NCBI GenBank assembly: GCA_000246735.1
Contig: CM001443.1
Coordinates: 1,537,880-1,579,954 of the forward strand
Length of the DNA: 42,075 bases
Source of the DNA: an uncultured Candidatus Poseidoniales archaeon
GTDB taxonomy: Archaea > Thermoplasmatota > Poseidoniia > Poseidoniales > Poseidoniaceae
Direction of reading: 5' to 3'
The position numbers and the translations under genes were made by a program. Shown piece by piece: positions 15,587 to 25,405 of this stretch; position 1 is the first letter of the stretch; the number at the start of each line of letters is the position of its first letter. The notes below the pieces were generated by a model. The model had not been told where the DNA came from and ran no database searches. It saw nothing but the letters and a program-made list of their open reading frames with translations.

Positions 15587-16822
15587 ATGACTGACGACCT
15601 GTTCTCATCCGAATCCGTGACCCGAGGTCACCCTGACAAGCTATGCGACACCATTTCCGATGCGATTGTCGATGCATGCCTTGCCGTCGATTCAAACGCT
15701 CGTGTGGCCGTCGAAACATGCGTGAAGGGAAAAGAAAACATTGGTCTCATCGTCCTTGCTGGCGAGGTATCACTCAACGGTGAAGCACCAGACTACGAAT
15801 CCATCGCTCGAAAGGCTGCGGTCGATGTGGGGTACAACGATCACGCCATCGGCATGGACGCTGCATCTGCCGAATGGACAGAAGTTCAGGTCCACATCAC
15901 AACTCAGTCCTCCAATATTGCTCAAGGCGTCAACAAGGACGGTCTTTCTCAAGGCGCTGGCGACCAAGGACTCATGTTTGGATACGCTTGCACTGAGACT
16001 GAGGCATATGAAGACCTCAACGGACGATTCTTCCCCCTTGCTGCTGCACTGTCACAACGGCTCACACGCCGGCTCACCGCCGTCCGAGAGCAAGGAATTC
16101 TCCCTTGGGCACGACCGGATGGAAAATCACAGGTGACCGTCGAATACGACGAACAAGGGAATGTGTCTCGAGTTCACACCGTCATTATTGCCATTCAACA
16201 CGACAAGGCCCTCAAGGACCAATTTGAAGGGTCAATCGAAGCGGAGCTCGCCCACGTACAGAGCGAAGTTCGCCGCCATGTTGTCGACTATGCCATCCCC
16301 GCTGAACTGCTAGATGAGGATTGCATTCTTGTGGTCAATGGAACCGGGCGATTTGCAGACCCTGGTGGCCCCTATGCAGATGCTGGTCTGACCGGCCGAA
16401 AAATCATCGTTGACACCTATGGTGGAATGGGTCGTCACGGCGGAGGAGCCTTCTCTGGAAAAGACCCTTCGAAGGTGGACCGCTCAGCAGCGTACGCCGC
16501 TCGGTGGGCTGCCAAGCACGTGGTTGCATCAGGATTGGCTGACCGCTGCGAAATTCAACTCGCCTATGTGATCGGTGTTGCTGAACCTGTGAGCGTTCGT
16601 GTCGAAACCTTCGGAACCTCAGAACTGACGCCCCGGGAGATCTCGACACGCGTCAAAAATGCCTTTGATTTCCGCCCTGGTGCGATTGCGAAGGACCTCG
16701 ATTTGCTCAAGCCGATTTACTCGACGACTGCCGCTGGTGGTCACTTTGGCCGAGCCCCCGGTGCAGACGGTTCCTTCCCTTGGGAAGCACTCGATGAAGC
16801 TCGACTTGCCCTCCTTAAGTGA
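15587..16822 (+). CDS. metK: S-adenosylmethionine synthetase, bacterial type
   Basis: 411 aa. It contains the bacterial/eukaryal MAT motifs in order: SSESVTRGHPDKLCDTISDA (ATP and Mg site), GEVSLNG, SNIAQGVNKDG, GAGDQGLMFGYA, the P-loop-like GGMGRHGGGAFSGKDPSKVD, and DRSAAYAARWAAKHVV. It makes S-adenosylmethionine from methionine and ATP, with a tetrameric enzyme expected in the cytoplasm. Most archaea use the highly divergent archaeal MAT family, so this gene is a bacterial-like replacement. Its length is slightly above the bacterial norm (about 385). It is divergent from aspS and followed by a hairpin. It would supply methyl groups to TrmI, encoded 4 kb away. Confidence 0.96.
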   Translation: MTDDLFSSESVTRGHPDKLCDTISDAIVDACLAVDSNARVAVETCVKGKENIGLIVLAGEVSLNGEAPDYESIARKAAVDVGYNDHAIGMDAASAEWTEVQVHITTQSSNIAQGVNKDGLSQGAGDQGLMFGYACTETEAYEDLNGRFFPLAAALSQRLTRRLTAVREQGILPWARPDGKSQVTVEYDEQGNVSRVHTVIIAIQHDKALKDQFEGSIEAELAHVQSEVRRHVVDYAIPAELLDEDCILVVNGTGRFADPGGPYADAGLTGRKIIVDTYGGMGRHGGGAFSGKDPSKVDRSAAYAARWAAKHVVASGLADRCEIQLAYVIGVAEPVSVRVETFGTSELTPREISTRVKNAFDFRPGAIAKDLDLLKPIYSTTAAGGHFGRAPGADGSFPWEALDEARLALLK

Positions 16823-16913: not shown

Positions 16914-19900
16914 ATGTCATCTCGTCCCGTTCGTGCAGTGGCCTTTGTTCTTGTTTTGCTCTTGGCCAGCCTTTCACCATTGGCGACGCCTGCATCAGCA
17001 CACAGTGCTATTTTGCTCGATGTCGATACACACCATGTGGTGCTTGAACCTGGGCAATCAAGCAATGTCACGCTGACAATCGAAAACAATGGGTCATCAA
17101 TCCGATCTTACAATGTATCCACCGACACTGGTGTTCTTTCATCCCTTTGGTCAATCACTGCGACCGAACCCGTAGTCGAGGACATTTTCCCGACATGGAG
17201 CAAGAACACCACCATTGTGGTGCAACTCTCTGTTGGCGCCGTACCTGCCGACAGTGGTTCGTTCAACATTCATGTGACTGAGCCAACCCAAAACATCACG
17301 TCAATCATTACGGTGTACGTGAGCGTCGCGCCTTCCTACGCCCCGCTCATCAGTTTTGACACAATGGGCTCATCACTCGCTTCGATGGATGCTGGCGAAG
17401 AAGCCTCTTTCAGCATCGATGTTACAAACGCAGGTTCGGTCGAAGACACATTGCTTCTTGATGTCGAATTTGAACCCGATTTGGCCACATGGTGGTCGAA
17501 CCAAGGCTCCAACTCAACGGGAAATGGCACGGGTGGTAATGGAACCGGAACTGGCAACGGGACCGGGGGCAATGGGACTGGATCTGGCAACGGAACCGGT
17601 GGAAACGGAACCGGCGGCAATGGAAGCAGCAACATCACCGTCCTCTCAAACCTCTTGATGTACGGAAACAGCTACACAGGCTACAACAACCTTGCCAGTT
17701 TGATGGAATCATTGGGCGTTGTCAACGCAGATTCAATCACACCCGGTGGGAAGATGCTGTCAGGGCATTGGGACGACATTAACACCTCCTTGCACATTTC
17801 AAACACAACGCTTCGTAATCCAAACATCGATTGGGATTATGTTGTTCTCCAAGACCAGAGTCAAGTCCCTTCCCTACCAACAACAGATACGTTTTGGCAG
17901 GCGAGTATGAATGGCGCAGTGAACATCAGCACCGAAGTTACGGCAGAAGGTTCCGAAACCGTCCTGTTCATGACATGGGGGCGCCGAAGTGGAGAATCCG
18001 GACCTCAATGGCATCAATACAGCATTAATCAAAACTACACCATCATGCAAGACCGATTGGCTGATGGGTACACTTACTACGCTGAAAACATCAGCGCTGC
18101 AGGAAATACAGTTTGGATCGCCCCAGTCGGCCTTGCATTCAAGACAATTCACGATGAGGTTATGGACAGCGGTTCTGATCCAACCCAAAGTGGAAATCTG
18201 TTTTATGACCTGTATGACGCAGACGGAAGCCACCCTTCATTGAAAGGAAGTTATCTCGCTGCATGTGTCCTTTATGCAACGATGACGGGTGAGTCCCCAG
18301 TTGGCTCAAACGACACTGTCTCCATCAATGCAACCGTGAAACTGCAATTGCAAGAAGCGGCGGCAGACACTGTGTTCAATGGAACATCCCACATCGACTA
18401 CCCATGGTCATCAACCATCACAGCCACCTCATCTGCACGTGGCCTTGGCGGTGGAATCCCAGCGGGATGGAATGTCCAATGGAGCGATGACCAACTCGAT
18501 GCCATGGCCGCAGGCACAACCCAACAAGCCACACTCGACATTACGGTCCCTGCTGATGTAGCCCCTGACTATTACGGATTCAGATTGTTTGCAGCCTCCA
18601 CACAAGGAAACATCAGCACATCGACCCTGTTGGTGGTGCACATTGATGAAGACCACAGCCTAAGCATTGCCTTCCTCGACCAAGATTCTCAATTCTTACC
18701 GGGCATGACAACGAACACTTCGGTATCGGTGACAAACACTGGAAATGCAGAAACCGACTATGATTGGAATGTTGAAGCGCTCAGCGGCCCATGCGCCTTT
18801 GCTCTACCAGACGCTGTAAGCCTGGCCCTACTGCCGGATGCAACCATTGACGTGACCATACAGGTTGACGTACCAGCAACTGCAACCATCGCAGATTCAT
18901 GTGAATTCCACTTTGAGGGCTCAACCCTCGAAGGAACAAGTGCCGTGGTGACTGGTGCAGAATCGTTCACGATCGCCGTCGATGAGCTGGTTGATTTCGA
19001 ACTCATACCAACCAATGCACAGGTCGAAGTTGAACCCGGCACTCCGCAAACTTACACCATGCGCTTACAGAATAACGGAAGCGAAACTCGAACCTTTAAC
19101 CTCCAAATTGAGAGCACAGAAGGCCTAAACACCATCATCACCTCCACAACTGACATCTCCATCCTCGCTGGGGAAAGCGGTACATGGGAGGTACAAACAA
19201 CTGCGGAAGAGGGCGCTGTCGGCATGTATGTTCAGGCATTCAGCGTGACACGAAATGGCGTCGTGTCCGAGGCATCTGTTGACATTGAGGTGCTCGCCAC
19301 ATCAGAGATCACCGTTGCTGGGCCCATCGATGGTCGAATCGTCATGCAACCTGGTACAACCTCCTCCACTGCATTCACGCTCAGCAACACAGGTACCCGT
19401 GATGTCATTCTAGTTGCATCTATGAGCGGCCTACCCTCTTCTGCTACAGCAGAAATTAGTCACTCTTCGCTCATGCTTAGTGTGGGTGAAACTTCGCAAG
19501 TGTACCTGAACATTACGTTAACCACCAACGCCGAACCGGGAACACATCCACTCGAATTTGGTTACGGCGGAACGGGTGCGTCAGCCGTTGAACAAGTGGA
19601 CTTGCAAATTCAGGACAGGTATTCCGTCCTTCTGTCAAGCACAAGCACACAAGTGGTGGCTGGTCCGTCCAACAATGCCTCCATCCTTGTCGATGTCACA
19701 AACTTCGGCACGGCAAGTGATGTTTTGCAATTGAGTTTGTCGGATTCATCCGACTCTACATGGTTCACCTACTCTCTTTCGACAACATCAGTTTCGCTTG
19801 CATCCGGAGCAACCAGCACTGTTCTCATCGAGGTGCGAGAAGTCATGACTGGCGCCACTGCAAACGGCATCACAATCACCCTTCATGCAACTTCGAGCAA

Positions 19901-20987
19901 CGATCCATCGGCCATCGACCACCTAAATTTGACCGTTCGTCCACAAGTTGCTGGTGCTGAAATCACCGTGATTGCCGATGTTGACGAAACCCCCCCAGGG
20001 GGCATCATTCGTGGCAGTGTTGTTGTGAAAAACACGGGGACTGCATACGATGAATTATTGCTGACCACCGTCGACATGGATTGTGGCGTAACCACGCTTT
20101 TCGAACTCGAAGCTGGTGCCTCTTCTTCTGCCATTCCTTGGTCGTGCACCATTGACGAGGGAGCACAATCTGGTCTTGCCAGTTTGGAGTTCCGAGTTAC
20201 AAGCACATCTCGCAGTGATTATGTCGAGACCTACGCTGAAATCTATTCAGTCGAACCAACGTACGCAAACGGAAATGTACTCGACATCACGACGGATGCA
20301 TCCACCTACAAGATTCCCTATTCAGGCGGTACAAGTGTTGTCGTGACCGTCACCAACTTGGCCAACACCCATGTTGAAGGCGTGTTAAGCTACAACGGGG
20401 AAGGCACTGGCATGCTGATTGGTCAATGGACACGAATCCTTGACGATAGTGCCGTGAACACATTCCAACTTGCCCCATTCGCATCGGCGGAATTTATGCT
20501 CACGCTTACATCAAACATTGAAAACGACGAAACAGCCAATATTGTGCTCAAGGCCACCTACGAGATTGTTGTGACAAGCACCACTGGGTCCGAGGAATCT
20601 GAGCAATTCAGCGTCGCGATTACAGGACCTGCAGAGCCGCCTCAGGGGGTCACACTCCCACTTGGAATCCAACTTGATCAAAGCACCACACTCAACACAC
20701 TGCTTGGTGGATGGGCCTTTGCCATTCTTCTGCTGAGCGTCATGTACCTCCGTCGAAATCGCAAGGTGACTCAAAATGTCGATGACGAATTTGATCAATC
20801 CGAAGAAGTGGTCGAAGAAGAGAACGATGCTGAAGAACAAACGCTTGGTTACAATGAATGCAGAATGGAAGACGGAAAGGTCAGTTGCCCGTCATGTGAA
20901 GCCCGATTGGGCGTGCCTCGTGGCAGCGAAGCACCGTTTAGATTCACTTGTCCGAAATGCCAAACGATGATCCGAGTTGTCGAATGA
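16914..20987 (+). CDS. giant exported Ig/NEW3-repeat protein with nested SGNH hydrolase domain and cytoplasmic zinc ribbon
   Basis: 1357 aa. The signal peptide is at about residues 1-30, ending near ATPASAHS. Repeated beta-sandwich units of the NEW3/CARDB kind follow through to about 1240 (e.g. NTGNAETDYDWNV, NNGSETRTFNLQIES, NTGTRDVILVAS). At about residue 200 a Gly-Asn-Thr linker leads into an SGNH/GDSL-like hydrolase domain resembling DUF4886. It has LMYGNSYTGYNNL (Ser253), DYVVLQDQSQVP and DGSHPSLKGSYLAA (Asp437, His440). Many N-x-S/T sequons suggest glycosylation. A transmembrane helix (GGWAFAILLLSVMYL) precedes an acidic stretch and a terminal CPSC...CPKC zinc ribbon, inside the cell. 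It probably sits on the cell surface and de-esterifies or binds polysaccharide; this is inference. Confidence 0.85.
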   Translation: MSSRPVRAVAFVLVLLLASLSPLATPASAHSAILLDVDTHHVVLEPGQSSNVTLTIENNGSSIRSYNVSTDTGVLSSLWSITATEPVVEDIFPTWSKNTTIVVQLSVGAVPADSGSFNIHVTEPTQNITSIITVYVSVAPSYAPLISFDTMGSSLASMDAGEEASFSIDVTNAGSVEDTLLLDVEFEPDLATWWSNQGSNSTGNGTGGNGTGTGNGTGGNGTGSGNGTGGNGTGGNGSSNITVLSNLLMYGNSYTGYNNLASLMESLGVVNADSITPGGKMLSGHWDDINTSLHISNTTLRNPNIDWDYVVLQDQSQVPSLPTTDTFWQASMNGAVNISTEVTAEGSETVLFMTWGRRSGESGPQWHQYSINQNYTIMQDRLADGYTYYAENISAAGNTVWIAPVGLAFKTIHDEVMDSGSDPTQSGNLFYDLYDADGSHPSLKGSYLAACVLYATMTGESPVGSNDTVSINATVKLQLQEAAADTVFNGTSHIDYPWSSTITATSSARGLGGGIPAGWNVQWSDDQLDAMAAGTTQQATLDITVPADVAPDYYGFRLFAASTQGNISTSTLLVVHIDEDHSLSIAFLDQDSQFLPGMTTNTSVSVTNTGNAETDYDWNVEALSGPCAFALPDAVSLALLPDATIDVTIQVDVPATATIADSCEFHFEGSTLEGTSAVVTGAESFTIAVDELVDFELIPTNAQVEVEPGTPQTYTMRLQNNGSETRTFNLQIESTEGLNTIITSTTDISILAGESGTWEVQTTAEEGAVGMYVQAFSVTRNGVVSEASVDIEVLATSEITVAGPIDGRIVMQPGTTSSTAFTLSNTGTRDVILVASMSGLPSSATAEISHSSLMLSVGETSQVYLNITLTTNAEPGTHPLEFGYGGTGASAVEQVDLQIQDRYSVLLSSTSTQVVAGPSNNASILVDVTNFGTASDVLQLSLSDSSDSTWFTYSLSTTSVSLASGATSTVLIEVREVMTGATANGITITLHATSSNDPSAIDHLNLTVRPQVAGAEITVIADVDETPPGGIIRGSVVVKNTGTAYDELLLTTVDMDCGVTTLFELEAGASSSAIPWSCTIDEGAQSGLASLEFRVTSTSRSDYVETYAEIYSVEPTYANGNVLDITTDASTYKIPYSGGTSVVVTVTNLANTHVEGVLSYNGEGTGMLIGQWTRILDDSAVNTFQLAPFASAEFMLTLTSNIENDETANIVLKATYEIVVTSTTGSEESEQFSVAITGPAEPPQGVTLPLGIQLDQSTTLNTLLGGWAFAILLLSVMYLRRNRKVTQNVDDEFDQSEEVVEEENDAEEQTLGYNECRMEDGKVSCPSCEARLGVPRGSEAPFRFTCPKCQTMIRVVE
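17511..17631 (+). repeat. low-complexity Gly-Asn-Gly-Thr linker repeat
   Basis: The coding DNA here is built from variants of GGNGTG-type units (codons ggc/gga, aat/aac, acg/acc), about 40 codons. It gives a flexible, sequon-rich linker just before the SGNH domain. Synonymous codons vary between units, so it is an old, selected repeat and not a fresh slippage product. Confidence 0.8.
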
Positions 20988-20990
20988 GCC

Positions 20991-21803
20991 TCACTCGACC
21001 GAAGTTCGTTGTGCAATCAAAAGGAAAGCAGTGTGACCAAATGGTCCGTTTACGGGACGCATGCCGCCTTTCGAGGCCTTGCCCCATTGTCGTTCCATGA
21101 GTTCTCCAGCCCATTCAACATTGAGGCCTGCTTGCTCGCATGCCTCCCAAGCATGTTCGACTTGGCTCGTCACAGGGCAATAGCAGGCAATCCGACCGCC
21201 AACGGCCAAAAGGGGTGCGACCGCAGCAATCGCTGACGGATGCTGAGGCAGATCAAGGATGATCCCATCGAATGTTTCGACATGCTTGGTGATTTCAGAA
21301 ATAACATCTTCGATTGCGCCTTCGACATGGTGATGCTCTGGAAATTCAGTCCAGCTTTGACGGGCCCTTGTCAGGTTTTTGAGACCAACATCTGCATGCT
21401 CTGATCGAGGTTCAACTGTAACATGCACACCTGAGCCACCGAGGGCACGTGCGATGTGCATCGAGAGACCTGCACTCCCAAGTCCGGCTTCGAGAATTGA
21501 ATCACCAGAACCAATGCCGAGTTTAGCAACAAAATACCCAGCATCTTTGGCGCTGATGGTTTGAGCCCTTCTCAGCATGCCTTTGGAAAGTTCAGGAAGC
21601 CGAGGTGGCAAACGCGTCAGTTGTTTTTGACCGAGAGTGACCAGTGAACCATACGGTACACCAGCGATTGTGGCCATTGCATCAAAGACACCCAAGCCCT
21701 TGATTTTTCGAACGCCCTCGATTAATTCGACAACGTGAACCTTACCTTCCGGCTCCACCAAAACAGCCCATGCATCATTGTCCATGAACCCTGCGAGTTC
21801 CAT
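20991..21803 (-). CDS. trmI: tRNA (adenine-N1)-methyltransferase, TrmI family
   Basis: 270 aa from the ATG at 21803. The longer frame to 21995 crosses the A+T-rich promoter and was rejected; an ATG at 21785 is a second choice. The N-terminal small beta domain (about 1-75) is followed by the Rossmann methyltransferase domain. Its S-adenosylmethionine motif is ILEAGLGSAGLSMHIARALG, with VTVEPR as the acidic loop and FDGIILDLPQHP as motif IV, typical of TrmI/Trm61. Archaeal members methylate N1 of A57 and A58 in the T-loop of tRNAs as homotetramers. The stop lies 3 nt from the stop of the converging giant surface-protein gene. Confidence 0.88.
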   Translation of the reverse strand: MELAGFMDNDAWAVLVEPEGKVHVVELIEGVRKIKGLGVFDAMATIAGVPYGSLVTLGQKQLTRLPPRLPELSKGMLRRAQTISAKDAGYFVAKLGIGSGDSILEAGLGSAGLSMHIARALGGSGVHVTVEPRSEHADVGLKNLTRARQSWTEFPEHHHVEGAIEDVISEITKHVETFDGIILDLPQHPSAIAAVAPLLAVGGRIACYCPVTSQVEHAWEACEQAGLNVEWAGELMERQWGKASKGGMRPVNGPFGHTAFLLIAQRTSVE

Positions 21804-21850
21804 TCGGATTTCAATCCTTTGTGAGATGAAAAGAGGACAATCGACAACAA

Positions 21851-21861
21851 GAATATATATG
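21851..21861 (-). promoter_or_regulatory. TATA-like element upstream of trmI
   Basis: On the minus strand CATATATATTC lies about 48-58 nt upstream of the trmI ATG, leaving a leader of roughly 25 nt that contains AAAGGA. A second A+T-rich element, ATAAATATAT at 21871-21880, is an alternative. Confidence 0.45.
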
Positions 21862-21930
21862 AAAATTACAATAAATATATCACAAACCCGCAGTCCAACG
21901 AATAAACTGGACCTGTCATGAGAGGGGTTT

Positions 21931-21940
21931 GTATAAATAC
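21931..21940 (+). promoter_or_regulatory. TATA box of the exported thioredoxin-like protein gene
   Basis: GTATAAATAC is a near-consensus archaeal TATA box centred about 26 nt upstream of the ATG at 21962. Transcription should therefore begin at the start codon itself (leaderless mRNA); no ribosome-binding site is seen. Confidence 0.6.
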
Positions 21941-21961
21941 CATCCAGTGTGTGTAATATCC

Positions 21962-24900
21962 ATGAAGATGCCCGCACGACTTCTCGCTCTAACAATTGTA
22001 ACTCTATTCGTCGGCAGTGTCCTTGTTGGATTCACGGCAGAGATGAATCCACTCGACAATGAAAAAACGCTTGACGAGGCGCCTGTAGTTCAACAAGCAA
22101 GTTCAGCAACGAGTCCAGGACACGTTGTGTTTGGACAATATATTTCATCAGACAACTGCGGTCACTGCTCCAAAACAGGCGGCGGCTCCGATGCACACCA
22201 CGCGGTGAAGCAACTTCACCCTGACGAGTATGTCTACATCACGTACATGTCCGCTTCCTACGGCGACACTGACACCTCCCGTGCAGGTAACGTAGCCCCG
22301 TACAACTGGGCATGGTCGACAGGCGGAGCACCAGACGCTTACTTCGGAGACCGCACCGACAAGAACCAAGGTGGGGCCTCGGCAAATTACGACACATATG
22401 ACACCCTCTTCTCTTCTGGCGGAGGAATGGCTCCAACAGTCAATGATTACGGCATGTCCGCATCGATTGGACAAACTGGAACCACTTACGACATCGACAT
22501 CTCCTACAAATACACAGGATCTGGTAGCCCAGCAAGCAACATGAAACTCTACGCTGCGCTTGTTGACAAGGATTGCACTGGATACACCTACACCTCTGGA
22601 ATCCCTCACGGCTACAACTGCTGGATGGCTTGGCTCACTGACAGTGACACATACAAATCGAAGAGCGGCGGATCCGGAAGCTCCTTCGCATCTGTCGTCC
22701 CAAGTTCAACATCCCAGTCAGTCACATGGTCAAACGTCCCAGCATCGGTCGTACCGGGTGGTCTGAACAAGGCCATCGTGGTCGGTGTCCTCATGGCTGG
22801 AAACCAAGTTTCAGTGGGCGGCACTTCTGCCCACGTGTACCACGCAATCGACTCGACGATGGGGCCTAAGATGGACCTCGCACCAGACGGTCTTACCGTC
22901 ACCAACCCAACCGGTGGCACATCGTACATTATCGGCGACACGATCACACTCGACACGACCATCAACAACATTGGCGACCTCGACTACAACGCTGGTGGAA
23001 GCATCGAATTCTTTTACAAGAACGGCGTCAATGAAGTTTCCATTGACACGAAATCCCTCAACAACATCAACACAGGTGGCTCTCAAACCGCATCCGTGAA
23101 CTTTGACACCTCTGTCCTTCCAACAAACGGATGGAAGACGACATTCGGTGTCCGCCTCACCGGACTCGTGGACGAAACTCAAAGCGCCAACAATTTGGTT
23201 CAGTCTGAACTTGACCACGACCGACCACCACTCGCAAAGAAGGCACAAGTCGAAGGCGACAATGTCATTGCTCGTGGCACACAGTTTGAAATTCTCGCCA
23301 AGGGCGATGCTGACGACAATGTCGACACCATCGACTCGATGAGTTTCAACATTGAAGTCTCCCCAACTGGAGCAAACCAATGGTCCAGCGACATTGTGTC
23401 CGGTGGCGAAATGGTCATGTATCCAGGTTCGCCAAGCGAAGGCCGTGCCTACCTCCTTAGCCCATCAATGGACATGGCCTCTGGTTGGTATGACATCCGA
23501 TCACAAACGGTCGATTCACGAGGACAAACAAGCGACTGGATTGTCACTGCAGGCACTGATGGCTTCAAACTCGCCAACGGAATCCCCTCCATTGTCGCAG
23601 AACCAATCCCATCTGTCCTTTGTGACACAACAACCAAGTTCGACCTCACCGGACACGTCGCTGACCCAGAGACGCCTTTGGAAAGCCTTGTCATTACATC
23701 AGACAATCCATCATTCGTAGCATGGCATCCATCAACAACAGAACTCGAAGTGAAGTTCTCATGGAATGAAATCAATGGATGTCCACTTGGACAACAAGGC
23801 ATGGAAATTCGAGTCGATGACGGAGGAGATTACTCCGAAGCCGGAGAGTTGCCATACGGAACACTCCTGTTCAATGTCCTCGAAAATGGTCAACCACGTT
23901 GGGAAGGACTTCCTACACAAACCATTGATGAAGGTGGCTCGGGCATCATTGACCTCCTTCCGTTCCTCTCCGATACCGACGACACTGGCCAACCCGTGAA
24001 CGCAAACACACTCACAGTGTCCATGATCAGCACATCAAATGATGATATCATTTCCTTTATGCTCGAAGGCTACGCTCTTGGCTTTGAGACAATGGACGAT
24101 GATGTCAACGGTCAGTCAATCGTGACCCTCCGGGCAAGCGATGGCGAACAAATTTCCGAACAAACCATGATTGTGCAAATCAACCCAAGCAACGATGCCC
24201 CACGCATCGATCTTGACAGCATGGAAACGATTCAACTCAAGCGAAATGAGCAGATGGTCACTGACCTCACCCCTCGAATCAGCGATATTGACGACCCCGC
24301 AGAAGAGGCGTTCCTCACCGTCGAATCTACTGAATCTGGAGCAGCCCGGTACAACCTACTTACAGGAATGCTGACCCTTCAATTCGAACAAGTTGGCGCA
24401 CAAACAGTGACCCTCACAATCATGGACAAGTACGACACGAACACCTACCAAATCATTGTGAATGTCTACGACGCACTTCCCTTAGAGATTTCAACAGTTG
24501 ATGATGGCACTGGCCAAATCTATACTGAAATGACTGACACATACATTGGACAAACGCCAACGGTCACAATGACGCTCACTGACGCAGCTCCAGTTTTCAC
24601 ATACATGATGGCAAACTGGAACGTCTGCAATGAATTGACGGGTACCTGTGATGGACTGCTCACCTACGAGTTAGATGTGACGCAATCCGCAACTGGGTGG
24701 ACCAATGTCCTCGACATGCCTTCACTCGTCTTCGAAGGCCAGTCCGCACGAGAAGATGGTTCGAGAGACCGTGATTACTACGAACTAGAGATGACGGCAA
24801 GTGACGCCAATGGTGATGATTACAAGACCCTCACCAAGATGAAGTGGACCATCACTGAAACGGCCCCTACACCAGATCAAATGGATGAAGCAATGCTTGA

Positions 24901-25405
24901 GGCTCACGTCTTCAACCTACAAGCTTCGAAGGCTGCGCTCACAGGAAGCATTGCAGAATCCACTGAGGACACCACTGAACTCGAGGCAGAACTTGCTGAA
25001 GTGGTAGAGAAACTCGAGATCGCATGTGCCGACCCACGTTCAGATTGCCCAACAGATTCGGCATCGGGAGCAACCAACACAGACACTTCTGAATCGATTC
25101 CAATGGAACTTGTCTTTGCTGGAATTGGCATCCTCATCGTCGCCCTTTTAATCGGTCTTATGTTCACCCGAAGCGGTAGCAAGAACGAAGTCGAAGACTG
25201 GAGCGCTACCATGCTCCCTGCGAGCGACATGGTTGCAAACTCCATGTACGGTGGAGCCCAAGATATCTTCCAAGCCCCTGCACCGGTTGTTCCACAACAA
25301 CAGTACGCTGGACCACCACTCCCAGCAACTGGATTACCGGCTGGATGGAGCATGGAACAATGGGTTCACTACGGACAGCAGTACCTTGATCAAAACCAAC
25401 TTTGA
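21962..25405 (+). CDS. giant exported protein with N-terminal thioredoxin-like CGHC domain and cytoplasmic short motif
   Basis: 1147 aa from the ATG at 21962; an earlier ATG at 21929 lies upstream of the TATA box and was rejected. The signal peptide spans about 1-24. A thioredoxin-like domain follows (VVFGQYISSDNCGHCSKTGG, Cys66-G-H-Cys69) and resembles domains seen in surface proteins that use a CxxC pair outside the cell. Then come CARDB/cadherin-like beta domains (IGDLDYNAGGSIEFFYKNG; NDAPRIDLDS). A coiled coil (about 985-1025, KAALTGSIAESTEDTTELEA) precedes a transmembrane helix (FAGIGILIVALLIGLMF). The cytoplasmic tail ends in GLPAGWSMEQWVHYGQQYL, a compact helical motif of unknown role. 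Confidence 0.82.
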   Translation: MKMPARLLALTIVTLFVGSVLVGFTAEMNPLDNEKTLDEAPVVQQASSATSPGHVVFGQYISSDNCGHCSKTGGGSDAHHAVKQLHPDEYVYITYMSASYGDTDTSRAGNVAPYNWAWSTGGAPDAYFGDRTDKNQGGASANYDTYDTLFSSGGGMAPTVNDYGMSASIGQTGTTYDIDISYKYTGSGSPASNMKLYAALVDKDCTGYTYTSGIPHGYNCWMAWLTDSDTYKSKSGGSGSSFASVVPSSTSQSVTWSNVPASVVPGGLNKAIVVGVLMAGNQVSVGGTSAHVYHAIDSTMGPKMDLAPDGLTVTNPTGGTSYIIGDTITLDTTINNIGDLDYNAGGSIEFFYKNGVNEVSIDTKSLNNINTGGSQTASVNFDTSVLPTNGWKTTFGVRLTGLVDETQSANNLVQSELDHDRPPLAKKAQVEGDNVIARGTQFEILAKGDADDNVDTIDSMSFNIEVSPTGANQWSSDIVSGGEMVMYPGSPSEGRAYLLSPSMDMASGWYDIRSQTVDSRGQTSDWIVTAGTDGFKLANGIPSIVAEPIPSVLCDTTTKFDLTGHVADPETPLESLVITSDNPSFVAWHPSTTELEVKFSWNEINGCPLGQQGMEIRVDDGGDYSEAGELPYGTLLFNVLENGQPRWEGLPTQTIDEGGSGIIDLLPFLSDTDDTGQPVNANTLTVSMISTSNDDIISFMLEGYALGFETMDDDVNGQSIVTLRASDGEQISEQTMIVQINPSNDAPRIDLDSMETIQLKRNEQMVTDLTPRISDIDDPAEEAFLTVESTESGAARYNLLTGMLTLQFEQVGAQTVTLTIMDKYDTNTYQIIVNVYDALPLEISTVDDGTGQIYTEMTDTYIGQTPTVTMTLTDAAPVFTYMMANWNVCNELTGTCDGLLTYELDVTQSATGWTNVLDMPSLVFEGQSAREDGSRDRDYYELEMTASDANGDDYKTLTKMKWTITETAPTPDQMDEAMLEAHVFNLQASKAALTGSIAESTEDTTELEAELAEVVEKLEIACADPRSDCPTDSASGATNTDTSESIPMELVFAGIGILIVALLIGLMFTRSGSKNEVEDWSATMLPASDMVANSMYGGAQDIFQAPAPVVPQQQYAGPPLPATGLPAGWSMEQWVHYGQQYLDQNQL

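Follow-up and report, generated by a model that had tools for sequence, protein, structure and literature searches.

Domains nested within other domains are common. In a survey of ECOD domains, insertions of the form A1-B-A2 were found in 20% of multidomain proteins, and the inserts were usually smaller than their hosts (median 115 vs 199) (PMC13114784). In the lipin/Pah phosphatidic acid phosphatases, an Ig-like domain is built from two separated regions of the enzyme; it lies packed against the catalytic domain, which it stabilises, and in lipins the linker is both long and variable. The available part of the source describes no exchange of cargo for this family (PMC7066176). In the archaeal order Ca. 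Poseidoniales, a horizontally acquired copy of proteorhodopsin replaced the resident one in place, possibly by homologous recombination (PMC6461757).

Here, we describe a locus that shares something with each of these systems. The window, by which we mean the whole 42,075-nucleotide stretch of DNA analysed, comes from an uncultured Ca. Poseidoniales archaeon and encodes a large predicted surface protein (hereafter, the scaffold protein) in which an SGNH hydrolase almost certainly interrupts a NEW3-type beta-sandwich. As in the A1-B-A2 insertions, one domain interrupts another, and, as in lipin/Pah, an Ig-like domain in a protein with an enzyme is drawn from two separated regions. Unlike the surveyed insertions (PMC13114784), a single orthologous point holds several unrelated inserts or a spacer only, with linkers predicted to be disordered and contents that appear to be exchanged between species; moreover, the hydrolase insert (about 255 aa) exceeds its host (about 125 aa) in size, the reverse of the surveyed trend. 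The packing of the Ig-like domain onto the catalytic domain sets lipin/Pah apart from the present case (PMC7066176). The proteorhodopsin replacement is a fixed-site substitution in the same order, but it concerns a whole gene (PMC6461757), whereas here part of a gene within a domain loop is concerned. Compared with the NEW3/NPCBM_assoc domain (PF10633) and residues 404-502 of 1wcq, the fold is the same, and so is the profile once the flanks are joined; the difference is the interruption by a cargo slot.

What would be new is that, in two families, one and the same position inside a domain takes up unrelated cargo. We found no report in open-licence papers of an archaeal surface protein with a slot that stays in place while its cargo changes, and the scaffold protein is not mentioned in the available parts of PMC6864105 and PMC6461757, which treat adhesion and horizontal transfer in this group. 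Such a slot would amount to a natural domain-insertion experiment with the exchange visible in DNA, and it would offer a genomic handle on the surface variation of uncultured, abundant marine archaea; its loop is a candidate site for surface display. The original prediction, made from the sequence of the window, envisaged an enzyme nested in a sandwich and held rigidly at the cell surface. The nesting stands, the rigidity is not supported, and the changing, exchanged contents of the slot in relatives had no place in it.

The split NEW3 sandwich and its hydrolase

The features of the locus are collected in Table 1. The host genome of the scaffold protein is a single contig of 2.06 Mb, and the open reading frame has no internal stop. 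Among the 80 of 143 relatives of the protein that were listed, most of the named ones belong to the Ca. Poseidoniaceae (Marine Group II). The four Cys residues of the C-terminal ribbon are conserved in 10 of 10 aligned relatives. The choice-of-anchor T family (NF041740) scored 48.4 bits against the scaffold protein, under its cut-off of 70, and an NCBIfam search with the downstream methyltransferase-like protein gave no match. A neighbouring gene (21929-25405, +) encodes a 1158-residue predicted surface protein with a hydrophobic C-terminal segment (by eye); it is present downstream in many relatives and found no match in NCBIfam.

Table 1. Positions of the features of the scaffold gene and its neighbours in the window.
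Feature	Positions	Strand	Residues	Basis
Scaffold protein: signal peptide (by eye), serial NEW3/Ig-like domains, TM helix (by eye), acidic linker, CxxC...CxxC zinc-ribbon tail	16914..20987	+	1357 aa	
Domain 1, intact NEW3-like sandwich	17016..17333	+	35-140	model, profile-profile
N half of split NEW3 domain 2: first strands and start of short helix	17334..17501	+	141-196	model, profile matches
N-side slot linker, N-G-T repeats, 9 sequons	17502..17648	+	197-245	sequence, pLDDT
Cargo, DUF4886-type SGNH hydrolase, presumed triad Ser253/Asp437/His440	17649..18413	+	246-500	fold and Pfam matches
C-side slot connector	18414..18458	+	501-515	pLDDT, relatives' lengths
C half of split NEW3 domain 2, five strands	18459..18659	+	516-582	model, profile matches
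Further NEW3/Ig-like domains, presumed stalk	18660..20639	+	583-1242	Pfam, profile-profile
Presumed transmembrane helix	20703..20762	+	1264-1283	by eye
CxxC...CxxC ribbon, presumably cytoplasmic	20886..20960	+	1325-1349	Zn-ribbon models below cut-off; Cys kept in relatives
metK, conserved upstream neighbour, marks orthologous locus	15587..16822	+		NCBIfam search, neighbour table
Methyltransferase-like gene (name by eye), conserved downstream neighbour	20991..21995	-		neighbour table

The first half of a NEW3-like unit had been proposed to end near residue 195 and the rest to resume near residue 515. The motifs at these two places are DLATWW (residues 189-194, 17478-17495) and PAGWNV (516-521, 18459-18476). 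In a Pfam search with the whole protein, the NEW3 (PF10633) match opens at profile position 30 right after the slot (residues 515-554, 40 bits), which indicates that the slot is followed by half a domain. When the flanks were joined, PF10633 matched continuously over profile positions 3-69 of 78 (32.7 bits, cut-off 24.4), whereas the C half alone matched positions 31-70 and the N half alone gave no match to this profile. Similarly, in profile-profile comparison with the protein's own intact domain 1, the N half corresponded to 6-45, the C half to 40-105 and the joined sequence to 6-105, with a score of 61.6 for the joined sequence vs 38.3 and 34.9 for the halves. By both measures, the split lies where it had been predicted, beyond chance.

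AlphaFold2 models were built for the window protein (residues 35-700; 41 sequences, namely the window and 40 of the 41 hydrolase-bearing references, with L086 left out; pLDDT 82.8) and for L131, a relative with an empty slot (13 sequences, from 13 of the 15 no-hydrolase references; pLDDT 78.5). Neither reference list includes rows with X or any G-handle locus. The two models share one strand order, the slot being preceded by four strands with a short helix and followed by five strands. In the empty-slot model, 98 residues in the range 106-284 superpose on the continuous sialidase domain 1wcq 404-502 (rmsd 1.8 A, Z 12.4), and this match must span both sides of the slot because the halves have only 59 and 66 residues. 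In the window model (pTM 0.45), the packing of the halves was judged from strand order and low-precision alignments, such as that with 7som_D, in which 303 residues over 1-666, some possibly in the hydrolase, align with chain range 34-340 at an rmsd of 12.2. Foldseek alone was little informative past 4s1p, as its multi-domain rows have an rmsd above 11.

Thus host residues lie on both sides, the insert is a complete domain, and the host also occurs without it, its flanks joining as one domain in L131. We conclude that residues 141-196 and 516-582 almost certainly form one NEW3 beta-sandwich interrupted by the hydrolase; the proposal of a complete SGNH enzyme nested in a beta-sandwich loop is borne out by halves that match parts of one NEW3 unit and by the agreement of both models, neither of which places two complete beta domains around the slot. 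A tandem arrangement with complete beta domains on both sides, to which the long linkers beside the hydrolase would lend the look of ordinary inter-domain spacers, is scarcely credible, as each side matches only its own half of a NEW3 unit and the 98 residues across the empty slot match one 99-residue domain.

The nested enzyme carries the motifs GNSYT (residues 251-255, 17664-17678) and DGSHP (437-441, 18222-18236). In the window model, its fold matches 4i8i (Z 23.1, rmsd 2.5, 220 residues aligned) and 4s1p (Z 21.4, rmsd 2.3, 179 aligned), and it shares with these DUF4886 (PF16227) SGNH hydrolases the positions of the Ser and of the DxxH motif; we found no description of 4i8i or 4s1p as inserted in a sandwich. 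DUF4886 scored 30.7 bits against the excised domain and 25.8 bits, just under the cut-off of 26.7, in the whole-protein search. The presumed triad, S253 in Block I with D437 and H440 in the DxxH of Block V, is present in the window hydrolase and is intact in all 16 free hydrolases and in 47 of the 49 slot hydrolases in which each of its positions can be read (of 50 rows, one has a gap at the Ser); the QDQSQ motif is nearly invariant. The two exceptions, L097 (T/N/E) and L098 (S/N/N, vs S/D/H), are sisters in the hydrolase tree. Catalytic activity is therefore not needed everywhere, and these sequences suggest that cargo may be retained past the loss of catalysis. A review (PMC9487903, in the part available) gives no known activity for DUF4886. 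From its fold and setting, the window cargo may tentatively be regarded as a carbohydrate esterase.

Contents of the slot at one orthologous locus

A survey of slots, which dropped ORFs with a missing or incomplete anchor, passed 97 ORFs representing 72 distinct slots. The scaffold gene has metK directly upstream in 61 of the 72 and a methyltransferase gene directly downstream in 69 (both hand counts), which marks the locus as orthologous. Among the 11 without metK, five have a flank of at most 134 bp and six have aspS adjacent in its place; all three misses of the methyltransferase gene have a flank of at most 490 bp. The absence of metK between aspS and the scaffold gene in L090, L091, L103, L105, L119 and L147 looks like a small local rearrangement.

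The 71 rows of the scaffold tree, from which L014 was excluded as a partial duplicate of L086, comprise 49 hydrolase slots, 14 with a spacer only, three with Ig-like A cargo, three with Ig-like B cargo, one with a propeller-like cassette and one with a propeller-like cassette plus a hydrolase. Gaps within the slot range over 0-447 and 0-272 aa, and at every other site they reach at most 28 aa; overall, the slot loop accommodates about 50 to 680 inserted residues. In G001, the slot holds Ig-like A followed by propeller-like repeats, read on two contigs that break within the slot. The slots of g11 genomes are of a different make-up (325-330 aa, in all five genomes read) and include an InlB-B-type domain in both of the two, of these five, given to Pfam. 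A Pfam search of the g1 and f2 Ig-like cargo gave no match. The term Ig-like was assigned by eye, apart from this InlB-B-type domain and from a similarity between the g1 cargo and the beginning of that of g11 (30% over 111 aa, E 3e-18). The propeller-like cassette consists of seven 48-residue repeats and is named from these repeats, not from a structure. Its Pfam matches to Gp5_trimer_C, Glyco_hydro_30 and PUD are mutually discordant and were set aside as likely chance hits on a repeat. The 48-residue repeats are also seen in further large proteins of related genomes that appear to be secreted (L171, L172, L173, L174 and L175), and these may serve as a reservoir for the cassette in the slot.

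Exchange of cargo between lineages

The propeller-like cassette is far more similar between lineages than the scaffolds that carry it. Between L086 and L134, the cassette is 88.7% identical in nucleotides (83.9% at codon position 3), whereas the scaffolds share 53.3% on the left and 43.5% on the right (35.0% and 29.0% at position 3). Similarly, L038 and L134 share 95.3% of nucleotides over five cassette repeats vs 46.8% in the right scaffold. Across these comparisons, position 3 ranges over 82-91% in the cassette and 29-35% in the scaffolds, and the closely similar DNA starts and stops at the linker-coding repeats.

The hydrolases tell a comparable story. In the hydrolase tree, the window groups with L083 and with lineages remote by scaffold. 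AU tests, made on clades picked after the trees were seen, showed that the hydrolase data reject three scaffold clades (p = 1.6e-4, 5.3e-6 and 3.6e-4) and that the scaffold data reject the hydrolase grouping (p = 3.3e-6); the trees were inferred under LG+G4 and include some long-branch rows (L041, L119). Furthermore, L083 is a mosaic: its amino acid identity with L017 is 78-100% outside the slot and 36-58% inside residues 234-425, where its identity with the window is 72-83%. Its right crossover lies near 431-443, within the catalytic DGSHP block. The similarity between the window and L088 is confined to residues 307-465, which suggests that part of the exchange is gene conversion within the enzyme and not replacement of whole cassettes.

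Could these patterns arise without an exchangeable slot? Ordinary gene-wide homologous recombination between species, with the hydrolase included by chance, would suit the right crossover of L083, which falls inside the hydrolase and not in a linker. We consider it rather unlikely, as four control segments of the gene (its left half and three on the right) all reject the hydrolase grouping, each of them either recovering the three scaffold clades or not rejecting them, and as cargo types change, not just hydrolase alleles.

One ancient insertion followed by vertical inheritance and lineage-specific loss or decay, with no exchange, is unlikely. It would account for the presence of a hydrolase in the slot in both families, for the grouping of slot hydrolases together against most free ones, and for the clustering of cargo types on the scaffold tree, where cargo state requires seven changes over the 71 rows (0 of 200 shuffles gave as few). 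The clustering itself indicates that exchange is occasional. Against purely vertical descent stand the similarity of the propeller-like cassette across genera, the mosaic L083, the L099 hydrolase within a spacer-only clade of the scaffold tree, and a conflict between hydrolase and scaffold trees that is restricted to the slot; for the tested clades, the contrast at codon position 3 and the segment controls already refute it.

Assembly or binning chimaeras at the repetitive linkers, which could mimic changes of cargo, are very improbable: contigs do break inside the slots of G001, G105 and G102, and several slots contain runs of N, but the L086 and L134 slots lie within contigs of 618 kb and 141 kb, many independently made assemblies have spacer-only, Ig-like or hydrolase slots, and the window's own tree conflict sits in a single-contig genome.

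The evidence argues strongly that the loop of domain 2 is an exchangeable cargo slot; the combined reading of a split domain with an exchangeable slot is also highly probable. Exchange probably proceeds by homologous recombination, whose seams would be the repeats that encode the linkers and conserved blocks of the cargo, DGSHP among them. The crossover positions suggest that linker DNA is the seam for whole cassettes, whereas a hydrolase seam can sit on one side in a conserved block. The idea that a virus carries either cargo found no support: a scan of viral_contigs with single hydrolase or propeller-like cassette proteins, which finds close relatives only, confirmed no relative.

Linkers, display and hydrolases outside the slot

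Is the enzyme held rigidly at the cell surface? The predicted N-G-T linker between the N half and the hydrolase was recovered, and it contains nine of the protein's 28 N-x-S/T sequons (0.18 per residue vs 0.015 elsewhere); its DNA contains imperfect tandem repeats of 33 and 15 bases. In the window model, pLDDT is below 50 at residues 199-242 and 500-513. Such predicted disorder on both sides of the enzyme speaks against the rigid hold originally envisaged and makes a flexible tether the more likely arrangement. In 46 slots with a hydrolase, linkers on the N side measure 18-92 aa (median 38.5) and connectors on the C side 9-21 aa, and the median sequon density over 59 slots is 0.19 per residue in the linkers vs 0.018 elsewhere. 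The STT3 oligosaccharyltransferase (PF02516) is above the cut-off in the window's genome, and the slot linkers may be N-glycosylated.

As regards the working of the protein, a membrane-anchored stalk of NEW3/Ig-like sandwiches would bear the cargo near its N-terminal, presumably membrane-distal end, with the loop of the second domain, ahead of its last five strands, acting as the permissive slot. We propose that this socket tolerates large inserts because the linkers decouple the folding of the cargo from that of the sandwich. A flexible tether, whose N-side linker is dense in sequons, would then present the hydrolase at some distance from the membrane, and the window cargo would perhaps act as an extracellular esterase on acylated polysaccharide or other ester-bearing organic matter, in accord with the degradative life of the group (PMC6336850).

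Hydrolases are also found outside the slot. In the order, 199 of 318 genomes match the hydrolase at E 1e-8, 192 of them once (hand count); among the seven with more than one match, some matches are pieces or duplicated contigs. Where the slot, read in whole or part, holds other content, the hydrolase, if found, lies near the N-terminus of another protein (G001, G007, G016, G043, G054 and G057; likewise G061, G063, G077, G078 and G086). In G042, it is on another contig and cut by the contig end, and G038, with an Ig-like slot, has no hydrolase match. Several spacer-only g12 genomes also lack a listed match, for which genome incompleteness may account in part. Among 20 loci picked from these matches, eight are slot hydrolases and 12 are not. 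We do not claim a strict rule by which a hydrolase in the slot rules out a second copy, given the seven multi-match genomes and G018, which has a possible second copy that is interrupted by N and perhaps a contaminant.

It is conceivable, though we put it forward with considerable reserve, that the locus is a dedicated domain-exchange platform across Ca. Poseidoniales. A standard socket, with sequon-rich linker DNA as the recombination seam, would allow in-place swaps to change the presented function (esterase, propeller-like, Ig-type or bare glycosylated spacer), and a single hydrolase copy would shift, over evolutionary time, between the socket and an N-terminal place in other secreted proteins.

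The free hydrolases (L178-L182, L185, L189-L192, L196 and L197) are preceded by an apparent signal peptide and followed by varied partners. In L182, almost nothing follows the hydrolase before the contig end; the partner in L178 consists of SBBP-like repeats (below the cut-off), and others carry NEW3-like stretches by eye.
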